Below are positions 46,949 through 64,000 of a DNA stretch of 64,000 bases, in pieces; position 1 is the stretch's first letter, and the number at the start of each line of letters is the position of its first letter. The position numbers and the translations under genes were made by a program. The notes under the pieces are model-generated. The model was not told where the DNA came from. It saw only the letters and a list, made by a program, of their open reading frames with translations, and did no database searches. The stretch lies in NCBI GenBank assembly GCA_031266535.1, contig JAISAS010000004.1:192531-256530 (forward strand), read 5' to 3'. The DNA comes from Endomicrobium sp. (GTDB lineage Bacteria > Elusimicrobiota > Endomicrobiia > Endomicrobiales > Endomicrobiaceae).

Positions 46949-47656
46949 TTATTTTTTTATTTTTAATAAATCTGGACGACGTTCTTTTGTTCTTTTATAC
47001 GATTCTATCTGTCGCCATTTGCTAATTTTCTTATGATTTCCTGACAAAAGAACTTTTGGAACTTTATATCCTCTAAATAATGCGGGCCTCGTATAACTTG
47101 GATAATCTAACATACCATTATAAAATGAATCGTTCTGAACAGAAAATGCTTCTTTAACAACACCAGGAATCATTCTTGTAATACTATCTATTAAAACCAT
47201 AGCCGGAATTTCTCCACCTGTAAGAACATAATCTCCTATAGATATTTCATCATCTACATAATTAACAATGCGCTCATCAATTCCTTCATAATGACCACAT
47301 ACAATAACTAAATGTTTAAATTTCACAAGACGCTTTATAATATTATCATTCAATGTCTTTCCCTGAGGAGACATTAATATAACATAAGGTTTTGTATAAG
47401 GATTCTTATAAAACATATTTTTTCTTTTCACCCCTATACTTCTTATGGCATCATACAATGGCTCAGGCTTCATTACCATACCATTTCCACCACCAAAAGG
47501 TCTATCATCAACTTTCTTATGTTTATCCTTACAAAAAGACCTCACATCTATTAAACTAATTTCAATAATTTTTTTTTCTAATGCCCTGCTTATCAAGCTT
47601 TCTGTAAGAGGGCCTTTGAACATTAATGGAAATATCGTAAGAACATTAATCTTCAT
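46949..47656 (-). CDS. trmD: tRNA (guanine-N1)-methyltransferase TrmD
   Basis: Methylates G37 of tRNAs to prevent frameshifting. The SPOUT core has [11 protein letters not shown], the knot motif [12 protein letters not shown] and GDYVLTGGE. The first half carries [16 protein letters not shown]. The open frame begins at 47680, but [13 protein letters not shown] at 47656 is the family N-terminus, giving 235 residues and an 11-base overlap with rimM. It lies in the classical ribosomal operon. Confidence 0.96.
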
Positions 47657-47963
47657 ATACAAAATAACAGTTATACTCAAGAATATTATCTGCAGACTTC
47701 ACGTGACCATAAATATCTTCATATACTTTTGGCAAAACAACAAAAATTTTCTCCCCTACGATACTTACTTTTTTTATTATATCATTCAACGCTGGTATTA
47801 AAATTTCTTCATCATAATCTTTTACAACCCAAATATCATTACTTTTTGTTGACATAACATCAGAGAAAACTCCTAATCGGGTCCCATTTTGATTAAAAAC
47901 TTCAAAACCCAAAATATCTGAAATCTTCCATCTTAGATTTAAATTACTTCCTTTATGTTCCAT
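47646..47963 (-). CDS. rimM: RimM, truncated to the C-terminal PRC-barrel domain
   Basis: RimM is a 30S maturation factor of about 165-175 residues: an N-terminal beta-barrel and a C-terminal PRC barrel. Only 105 residues are present here. They match the PRC half (LRWKISDILGFEVFNQNG...LGVFSDVMSTKSNDIWVVK...EILIPALNDIIKKV). The N-terminal domain is absent, and upstream DNA leads directly into the khpA remnant with no space for it. There is no strong ribosome-binding site at the ATG. Operon position (between rpsP and trmD) confirms identity. It is either a functional minimal RimM or an eroding gene. Confidence 0.8.
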   Translation of the reverse strand: MEHKGSNLNLRWKISDILGFEVFNQNGTRLGVFSDVMSTKSNDIWVVKDYDEEILIPALNDIIKKVSIVGEKIFVVLPKVYEDIYGHVKSADNILEYNCYFVYED

Positions 47964-47970
47964 TTAATAA

Positions 47971-48080
47971 TTATTCAACTACTTCAATAACCACCTTTAA
48001 TTTCTTTTATCTCTACTCGATCTGAATTACCAACTAAAGACTTAGTGATTAAAAGAACTAAATCTTTCTTAAATGCACAT
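47971..48080 (-). pseudogene. khpA: khpA (KH-domain RNA-binding protein) remnant
   Basis: Between rpsP and rimM, where khpA normally lies. From about 48066 the frame reads KKDLVLLITKSLVGNS then DRVEIKEIKGG, a good match to the KhpA N-terminus (KDLVEYIxKxLVDNPxxVxVxExxG). A one-base shift leads directly to VIEVVE and a stop, the family's C-terminal ending. The central part, including the GxxG loop, is deleted. The possible ATG at 48080 is out of frame with the first block. This is a clear deletion scar. Confidence 0.85.
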
Positions 48081-48139
48081 ATTTCTTTTTAATTACTAAT
48101 CAACATATCAACAACATAACAATACAATACATAAATACA

Positions 48140-48388
48140 CTACTTAATCTTTATGAGTGATTTTTTTATTAACGTAGCCACTGTACCTGAAGCTTTAGCT
48201 CCAACACCTAGCCAATAACTCACCCTTTTCACATTAACATCAAACTTATCATTATCAGCAATAGGATCATACCTACCAAGAATCTCAATCGGTTTTCCAT
48301 CTCTTCTTGATCTTCTATCAATTGCTACAATTCTGTAATGAGGCTTTTTAGATCTTCCTTTCCTCTGTAAACGTAACCGAACTACCAC
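48140..48388 (-). CDS. rpsP: 30S ribosomal protein S16
   Basis: Small-subunit protein. VVVRLRLQRKGRSKKPHYRIVAID, then SRRDGKPIEILGRYDP, are typical of S16. The frame opens at 48439, but GGAGG at 48400-48404 followed by a GTG at 48388 gives an 82-residue protein, exactly the usual size and N-terminus. It heads the rpsP-(khpA remnant)-rimM-trmD-rplS operon. Confidence 0.95.
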   Translation of the reverse strand: MVVRLRLQRKGRSKKPHYRIVAIDRRSRRDGKPIEILGRYDPIADNDKFDVNVKRVSYWLGVGAKASGTVATLIKKSLIKIK

Positions 48389-48399
48389 CTGTTTCTTTA

Positions 48400-48404
48400 C
48401 CTCC
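48400..48404 (-). promoter_or_regulatory. ribosome-binding site deciding the rpsP start
   Basis: GGAGG 11 bases upstream of the GTG at 48388. It supports that start over the ATG codons at 48439 and 48406. Confidence 0.6.
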
Positions 48405-48608
48405 ATAACCTCATGTTGAGCATACAAAAAACCCAACAAAAATTATAAACTACACAATTCAACACACAAAATAGATTATATATAAGTAACGCATAAATTG
48501 TCAACTTTAATAGTAAAAACTTTTTTCTTATATTAAATCAATTTTCTTTAACATAAAACTAGCAAATAGTAAATTTAGGTGATAAAATAAGACAATAAAT
48601 AAAATTAA

Positions 48609-51520: not shown

Positions 51521-52912
51521 CTAACTTTCACTTGCAACTTTGTTTCTATCAACTTTATCAACAATAACAAACATAAACTCAGCTTCTGCCGTCAACTTTC
51601 CATCAACATAGGCTTCACCTTTCATTTTTCCACGTCTTCCGCTATCTTTTAACACTTCAACCTTAAGTTCAAGAACATCTCCAGGTTTTACTGGTCTACG
51701 AAACTTTGCTTTATCTATAGACGTAAAATATGCAAGACAACCCCTAAGTTTAGGCCTTGAGAGAAACATAACACATGATGTTTGAGCCATTGCTTCAATA
51801 ATTAAAACACCAGGCATTATAGGAAATCCTGGAAAATGTCCTTGAAAAAAATTTTCATTAGCACTCACACACTTATATCCTATAGCTTTCAAAGGACTTG
51901 CAACATTTATTTTCACTTTATCAATCATCAAAAATGGATATCTATGAGGAATATAATTCAAAATCTCTTCTAATCCTAATATTTTTTCTGTTTCTGTTTC
52001 TGTTTCTATAAAACTTAGATTCATCGTACTTTTGTCCGTTATATTATTTGCAATTTCATCTTTTTCAACAACTGCTTTTTTTAAAAATTCTTTTACAAAA
52101 TTTATATTATTGTTATGACCTGGCTTATCAGCAATTATTTTAGCTTTTATAGGTCTGCCTGCCAAATATAAATCTCCTATTAAGTCAAGAATTTTATGCC
52201 TTACAAATTCATCTTTATAACGTAATGGTTCTTTATTATGTATTCCATTTAACGCTATAACTATTGCATTATCCATGGATCCACCTAAAGCAAGTCCCTT
52301 TTTTTGTAAAACTTCTATTTCATAGTCAAAACAAAATGTTTTTGCAGAAGCAATATGTGTTAAATAAAAATTCTTATCTAAATTTTTTAAAATCATTTTT
52401 TGAAATCTTAGAAATGGATGATCAAATCCTATGGTACATTCTATCTCAAGTTGTTCTGATGGTTGTGCAAATATTTTTGTTTTACCAGATTCAAAATATA
52501 CAGATTCTTTTAAAACATAATATTCTTTAACAGCACTAAATTCCTTCAATCCTCCATTTAATAGAATTTCTGTAAATATTTTTGCACTACCATCTAAGAT
52601 AGGAGGCTCGCTATTGCTCAATTCTATAATTAAATTATCTATACCTAAAGCAAAACAAGCCGACATAATATGTTCTATTGTATGAATTTTTATACCATTT
52701 TTTTCAATAACTGTTCCTCTTACAGCTGATCCTGCAATAGTATTTGATAAAAGAGCTTCAACCACAGGATTACCAGGTAAATCCGTTCTAATAAATTTAA
52801 TACCATATCCAGAGTCAGGAGCAGGTTTAAAAATAATAACACTTTTATTTCCTGTGTGGAGTCCTATACCTTCCACGGAAACTTCTTTTAAAATAGTTGT
52901 TTGCTTAGCCAT
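51521..52912 (-). CDS. bifunctional LpxC-FabZ fusion
   Basis: A 463-residue fusion. Residues 1 to about 290 are UDP-3-O-acyl-GlcNAc deacetylase LpxC ([17 protein letters not shown] and [14 protein letters not shown] with zinc ligands). Residues about 325-463 are the (3R)-hydroxyacyl-ACP dehydratase FabZ ([11 protein letters not shown] and [20 protein letters not shown]). LpxC commits to lipid A; FabZ makes the acyl chains, so the fusion ties both pathways together. Such fusions are known in several diderm phyla. The linker has an ETETETE repeat. The gene overlaps lpxD by 8 bases. Confidence 0.94.
51985..52008 (-). repeat. hexanucleotide tandem repeat in the LpxC-FabZ linker
   Basis: Three perfect copies of TTTCTG (plus strand) and a fourth ending in A, encoding the ETETETE linker. 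The unit is six bases, so copy number changes would keep the frame and only alter linker length. Confidence 0.7.
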
Positions 52913-62139: not shown

Positions 62140-62253
62140 TTATATATTTCAATTTTAAAAATCAAAGAAAGTAAAATAACAAATCATACACAAACAAATT
62201 AATCCTTCTACATATAACCTAATTTTAAACCATCCTTATGAATTTCTTATTAC

Positions 62254-63533
62254 TTATTCATCTTTCATAGCACAAAAATTCCCACACATTGTACATACAT
62301 CTTCTTGTTGTGATAATAATTTAGATCTTTCTTTCATAAATTTTATTTGATCTATACAATATTCTTTTTGTTTTTCCCAATTCCTCAATTTACGCCACTT
62401 AGACATTTCGTTATCACGTTCCTTAGCACCCTAATACCTTTAACAATATCAGCAGCATGTCCAGCTATTCTCGCAGAAATAACACCCTCATGAACATCTT
62501 GAATATCAGGAAGTCTCAAATGTTCTGCAAGGCGTAACATAACATATAAAATCAACCCCATAAATGGTCGCTAATACGCTTCCAATTGCAGCTGTTATAT
62601 GGGTTCCATAAACCTGGAGCTATATCAGTTATAAGTGGCCCTAAAAAATATAAAGGAACATCGTAACCTAATCTCTTTGCAATAATTACATTTGCTTCAA
62701 TCTGATTTATAGAGATATGACCTGGTCCCTCTATCATTATAGATTGAACACCCATTTTTCTTGCTTTTAAACAAGTTCTCTCACCCAAAACTGAAAGCTC
62801 AGCAAATTGAGAAGCATCTTGAAGCATCAAAAAAACAACCTGGTCTAAAACCATCCCCTAAGCTCAGTATAACATTGTACCTTTTAGCTATTCTTAGAAG
62901 TCTATCAAAATTTTCAAATAGAGGATTTTCTTTTCCTGTGGCATTTATACATTTAACCGAGAAAGATCCTCCTCTACTTACATACAATGCCTGCAAGACG
63001 TCCATGACGCCTTAATATTTCCACATTTGCCTTATTAACCACACAGTGAATAGTCATAAAATCTACACCTTGTTGAGCCTGTTCCTCTATTATGTCAAAT
63101 AATAATTCCTCATCAATTTCAAATATTTTTTTACCTTTGGCAACAGCTCTACATGCAGCCTCATAAATAGGCACAGTACCTACCTGAACAGAAGAAGCTG
63201 CAAGAATTTCTTTTCTTATATGAGTTAAATCACCTCCAGTAGATAGATCCATTACAGCATCAGCACCAGCTTTAACAGCAACATCAAGTTTAGCAAGTTC
63301 TTCAGCAATATCAATATGATCAGGAGAAGTCCCAATATTAGCATTAACTTTTGTTCTCAATCCTTTTCCAATACCAACAATTTTTTCAAATTTTCTATTA
63401 ATATTTTTCGGAATCACAATTGTGCCTGAAACAATTCCATTTCTTATAAATTCTTCATTTAAATTTTCGATCCGTGCAATACTGCTTATTAAATTATTAT
63501 TTTTTTATTTTGAGCATCTTCCATCAATCCCAT
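62254..63533 (-). pseudogene. thiC: thiC pseudogene (HMP-phosphate synthase)
   Basis: ThiC is the radical-SAM enzyme making the pyrimidine half of thiamine. The whole gene can be traced in pieces across frames: MGLMEDAQ at the start (stop near 63495), then GTIVIPKNIN...GKGLRTKVNANIGTSPDH...MDLSTGGDL (63417-62974). Next come [20 protein letters not shown], then LSVLGERT...MIEGPGHI...DIAPG (to 62552), [26 protein letters not shown], and finally the cluster motif CTMCGNFCAMKDE. At least four frame changes and internal stops make it non-functional. Confidence 0.92.
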
Positions 63534-63599: not shown

Positions 63600-64000
63600 T
63601 TAGATATTTAAAAAATTTTTATACCTTAAGTAAACTAATTTCTCCATAACATATATAGCATATCTTTCTCTCTTAAAACATATAGAAACCGTAGGTTCAA
63701 AAATTTTCGAATATTCTTCTAAAACTCTCAAGGATTCTTGAATACGCTTAAAATTTGAAACTATCACATCAGACATTTTTTTTTTGGACGTTTCCATCAA
63801 CCATTTGCCAAAATCATCATGAGAATTTCTCTTTTGCATAAACTCTGCATATCGATTCCTAAAAATTTTATCTATATCATGACGTATAGAACGAATCTTT
63901 TTATAAAAAATTTCATCATTTAATACAAAACGCAAACTATCTTCAATAACCCTTAACCCTTCTCTGCAACGATTTAAATTAGCATCAAGTATTCTTTTAA
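63600..64000 (-). CDS. ThiE-type N-terminal domain protein, partial at window edge
   Basis: The frame is open to the window edge, where it reads LKRILDANLNRCREGLRVIEDSLRFVLND, so the gene starts beyond 64000. This resembles the roughly 120-residue domain found ahead of thiamine-phosphate synthase in cyanobacterial and other ThiE proteins (RILDANLDRxREGLRVxED). It ends with VMEKLVYLRYKNFLNI and a stop, without the ThiE TIM barrel. It may be a stand-alone domain or the remainder of a truncated gene. The dead thiC just downstream suggests loss of the thiamine pathway. Confidence 0.6.
   Translation of the reverse strand, partial: KRILDANLNRCREGLRVIEDSLRFVLNDEIFYKKIRSIRHDIDKIFRNRYAEFMQKRNSHDDFGKWLMETSKKKMSDVIVSNFKRIQESLRVLEEYSKIFEPTVSICFKRERYAIYVMEKLVYLRYKNFLNI

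Follow-up and report, generated by a model that had tools for sequence, protein, structure and literature searches.

We identified a decayed khpA gene between rpsP and rimM in a genome of the termite-gut bacterium Endomicrobium (Elusimicrobiota). Our preferred reading, to which we assign a probability of about 0.93, is that it is a pseudogene formed under genome reduction, with khpB probably lost earlier and khpA lost solely in this lineage. The small protein KhpA is a type-II KH domain and nothing more, with the RNA-binding GxxG loop in the middle of the protein; it homodimerises and pairs with KhpB/EloR (PMC6403258). The 64,000-nucleotide stretch of DNA analysed here (the window) comes from a metagenome-assembled genome (MAG) of 395 kb in 5 contigs that is 52.9% complete, and its placement in the termite-gut genus follows from the named loci of its TrmD relatives. 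Recent work divides the genus into Endomicrobium and Endomicrobiellum and places all established flagellate endosymbionts in the latter (PMC11257099).

The khpA remnant occupies positions 47971..48070 on the minus strand, from an AAG triplet in place of the original start codon to the family stop codon TAA, and was recognized by its size, profile match and synteny. Read on the minus strand from 48070 to 47971, its sequence is AAGAAAGATTTAGTT...GAAATTAAAGGTGGTTATTGAAGTAGTTGAATAA. It is 100 nt long versus 231 nt for the intact genes of congeners (240 nt in the relative G033), and the net loss of 131 nt changes the reading frame, as 131 mod 3 is 2. The first frame encodes the 26 N-terminal codons (47993..48070, minus strand; profile positions 2-27, 29.5 bits) and translates as KKDLVLLITKSLVGNSDRVEIKEIKG(G), with M1 replaced by K and the conserved D14 by G. 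The second frame encodes the eight C-terminal codons and the stop, (K)VVIEVVE-stop (47971..47997, minus strand). The two pieces overlap at their junction, where the breakpoint can be placed no more precisely than to within a few bases. Intact khpA of congeners has 76 codons, and the two ends of the protein from the relative G018 read MKGLVLLITKALVDNPDQVEVREVTG... and ...KRVTVEIVE. Alignment to the intact relatives showed that codons ~27-68, including the GKEG loop, have been lost. The preliminary description of this DNA had recognized an N-terminal KhpA block joined to the last residues of the family in a shifted frame, and had ascribed the removal of the RNA-binding core to a single internal deletion. 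Both pieces and the deletion of the core were confirmed; "single" was not, since the start codon and the ribosome-binding site have been lost as well.

Chance likeness to KhpA was ruled out by shuffling, as the preliminary description had proposed: the N-terminal piece scored 29.5 bits (E=3.4e-7 with a 10-sequence KhpA profile searched against its own genome), while 3000 dinucleotide-preserving shuffles of the same 176-nt gap reached at most 7.0 bits. The C-terminal octamer before the stop was reached by 11 of 5000 shuffles and is thus the weaker match, yet it is correctly placed. The N-terminal piece alone had no Pfam match; the congeneric orthologue matches the KhpA family PF13083 (KH_KhpA-B; E=2.1e-19), to which Streptococcus pneumoniae KhpA, for example, belongs. 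The remnant thus keeps the N- and C-terminal sequence of this family at the locus used by its congeners, but has no start codon, no ribosome-binding site and no central part of the KH domain.

The neighbouring genes are intact and lie on the same (minus) strand. The 176-nt gap between rpsP (ribosomal protein S16; 48140..48406, PF00886, E=6.1e-23) and rimM (47646..47963, PRC_RimM PF24986, E=2.1e-9) contains both khpA pieces, and the order rpsP-remnant-rimM is the same as in 29 congeneric loci that were read base by base. It is followed by trmD (46949..47659, used for the relatives search and the tree) and rplS (L19; 46492..46947, PF01245, E=3.8e-42), the last gene of the collinear run. Synteny and alignment thus support the identity of the remnant as a khpA pseudogene at the rpsP-khpA-rimM-trmD-rplS locus. 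The RimM protein of the window is the PRC-barrel half only (105 aa). Its N-terminal domain PF01782 was not detected in the window gene, nor in any of the 35 other genus genomes and seven order outgroups that were searched, but 8 of 12 class-level relatives have it.

Besides the deletion, the remnant carries lesions that affect translation. In the DNA alignment its start-codon triplet is AAG where relatives have ATG, and position 1 is methionine in 37/37 intact KhpA proteins. The former ribosome-binding region (48071..48090, minus strand) is degenerate, with a Shine-Dalgarno duplex energy of -0.2 kcal/mol versus -5.8 to -11.9 in 29/29 congeners. With these two losses, KhpA should no longer be translated, whatever the deletion does. 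In addition, positions 1, 14, 21 and 69, which are invariant in the 37 intact proteins, are changed in the remnant pieces; none of the most divergent intact KhpA sequences breaks more than one of the invariant positions. With 100 of 231 nt left and GKEG within the deleted codons, the remnant has neither a complete type-II KH domain (about 76 aa) nor the RNA-binding loop. The order in which the deletion, the start-codon change and the loss of the ribosome-binding site occurred cannot be told.

The loss is confined to the window genome. Intact khpA covers the full profile length in 38 of the 41 other genus genomes (in one of them 75 of 76 positions), and khpA is present in 21/21 outgroup genomes tested. 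The remaining three (G002, G023 and G035) lack rpsP, khpA and trmD in their assemblies; we read this as incomplete assembly and not as khpA loss, since rpsP and trmD are missing too. The partly deleted state that the preliminary description had envisaged in sister genomes was found in none of them: 38 are intact, three have no such locus in the assembly, and the window genome is broken. TrmD, whose gene was found in 57 of 60 relatives, was used for tree construction. This tree pairs the window genome with G028 as its sister (98/92) and places the two in a clade with G018 and G017 (99/97); G028 has intact khpA. Consequently, the claim that the remnant dates the erosion holds in relative terms, for a time later than the divergence from the G028 and G018 lineages, and not as an absolute date. 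The most divergent intact copy is that of G033 (locus L019), which has an altered and longer C-terminus (79 aa, ...ELVRVMK) and may mark the onset of relaxation.

Across the genus, strong purifying selection acts on KhpA, with a median pairwise dN/dS of 0.08 (197 pairs). For the 26 codons of the remnant, dN/dS versus G018 was about 0.22, compared with 0.10 for the intact pair G018-G028; this small excess reflects either recent decay or too little power in a 26-codon test. Much of the divergence of the remnant arose while khpA still worked.

The function of KhpA could have been taken over by another KH protein or by an unassembled khpA copy, which we regard as improbable. A profile search of the 395-kb assembly (52.9% complete) returned, apart from the remnant, only the KH domain of RNase Y, and a second intact khpA in the assembly was thereby rejected. 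The intact same-strain copy that the preliminary description had named as contrary evidence is accordingly absent from the assembly, and the 53% completeness of the MAG leaves some chance that one lies elsewhere in the genome. In the congeners examined, khpA is single-copy and located between rpsP and rimM, and a second khpA was found in no genome examined. RNase Y itself is intact in the window and its KH domain weakly matches the KhpA profile, which would make it a candidate replacement; however, most congeners with KhpA also have RNase Y-like matches of comparable length.

It is very improbable that the lesion is an assembly or sequencing artefact, in which case khpA would be intact in the living population and the deletion in the contig either false or a rare variant. 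The lesion is known from one MAG, 53% complete and with no second genome of the same species, which is what gives this explanation its weight. Against it, three separate lesions (the start substitution, the lost Shine-Dalgarno sequence and the 131-nt deletion) are improbable as one error, the adjacent genes have open reading frames, coding sequence makes up 86% of the window and the contig spans 270 kb.

A promoter-like sequence, TTGACA-18-TATAAT, lies upstream of rpsP (48475..48504, minus strand) and matches the consensus at 12/12 positions, and most congeners have a counterpart between -50 and -99 upstream of rpsP. As this promoter is conserved and no terminator was predicted in the 176-nt gap, rimM, trmD and rplS are likely still transcribed. 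The earlier claim that the operon stayed transcribed is therefore plausible as a prediction from promoter and terminator signals, and for transcription itself it goes beyond them.

The last alternative is that the remnant still works, as a short untranslated spacer or mini-ORF, coupling rimM to upstream translation or shaping the rpsP-rimM mRNA. After the khpA stop of congeners, an ATG first occurs at -1 to 14 nt, usually with a weak Shine-Dalgarno sequence, so that coupling is plausible there, and in the window only a few nucleotides still separate the C-terminal piece and its stop from the rimM ATG. Had rimM depended on khpA by translational coupling, rimM translation may have changed here. 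Nevertheless, the N-terminal frame has neither start codon nor Shine-Dalgarno sequence, the gap has no match to a known RNA in Rfam, and the broken state is shared with no relative. We thus give a working remnant very little credence.

The reading of the remnant as a decayed pseudogene suggests the following course. The ancestral KhpA (76 aa, consisting of one type-II KH domain) would have been translated between rpsP and rimM. Later, and in the window lineage only, khpA would have lost its start codon, its ribosome-binding site and ~131 nt (codons ~27-68), the latter perhaps because a short repeat such as AAAGGTG allowed slippage or recombination. This heptamer is common to both sides of the junction and may be the microhomology behind the deletion. 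The loss of these codons, which takes the GxxG loop and most of the fold, would leave no KH domain to be made. With the remaining operon genes and the promoter in place, transcription probably continues through the region, where the remnant forms a 176-nt spacer, and the loss of khpA would have been neutral or nearly so.

Such decay fits what is known of the genus. Endomicrobium draft genomes have 10-37 annotated pseudogenes, and decay has turned a pilus region of Rs-D17 into pseudogenes (PMC8809381); genome reduction is documented in the endosymbiont genus (PMC11257099). The present case resembles these in that it concerns the small, AT-rich genomes of termite-gut flagellate symbionts, and differs in that khpA is kept by every congener with a located copy. 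The available parts of both papers make no mention of khpA or khpB loss, and a literature search on khpA loss in endosymbionts returned nothing relevant. The window contains another pseudogene, thiC (62140-63417, minus strand), now in at least three fragments, each similar to another part of PF01964; it was counted in favour of genome reduction. A ThiD2-like ORF (63600-63935) adjoins it. Elsewhere in the window, a 463-aa ORF (51521-52912) resembles, by eye from its translation, a putative LpxC-FabZ fusion.

The partner gene khpB has eroded in most of the genus. KhpB (Jag/EloR) consists of Jag_N, KH and R3H domains, and the R3H domain was found in 7/7 order outgroups versus 6/42 genus genomes. 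With a full KhpB query, full-length khpB was located after yidC in five genus genomes and was split by a stop in one. Many genus genomes, about 15, have no more of khpB than Jag_N, in an ORF of about 60-90 aa directly after yidC (L169-L171, L174-L176, L178-L181, L183-L186, L191). These stubs have a pairwise dN/dS of around 0.15 (44 pairs), like full-length khpB, and this holds also within a subclade in which every member is truncated, which suggests that the stub may be a maintained mini-protein. The khpB of G018 survives as a 156-aa fragment, flanked by yidC and the convergent dnaJ. The corresponding interval between dnaJ and yidC in the window genome is about 79 bp long with nothing recognizable inside, and that of G028 has no KhpB match. 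Since the sister genome G028 is without khpB and its khpA is intact, khpB was probably lost before khpA in the window line, before its split from G028; two independent losses of khpB, in the window lineage and in G028, are also conceivable. The RNA-binding system appears to have been shut down in two steps, khpB first and khpA second.

The khpA remnant is nothing unusual for a shrinking symbiont and, taken alone, one more pseudogene. What it adds is the order of loss, khpB before khpA, together with the selection on KhpA without KhpB. We slightly favour a dismantling in fixed order in these symbionts, in which KhpB begins by losing KH and R3H, so that often a selected Jag_N-only mini-protein is left after yidC, KhpA then remains under strong selection without KhpB, and the window species is the first sampled one to lose KhpA too. 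If this is true, KhpA has a KhpB-independent role that is important even in very reduced genomes. The genus and its relatives provide an ordered natural experiment, with both proteins in the order outgroups, KhpA and a Jag_N stub in many symbionts, KhpA alone in G028 and apparently neither in the window species. This series separates the role of KhpA itself from that of the heterodimer and names the lineages in which it can be tested.
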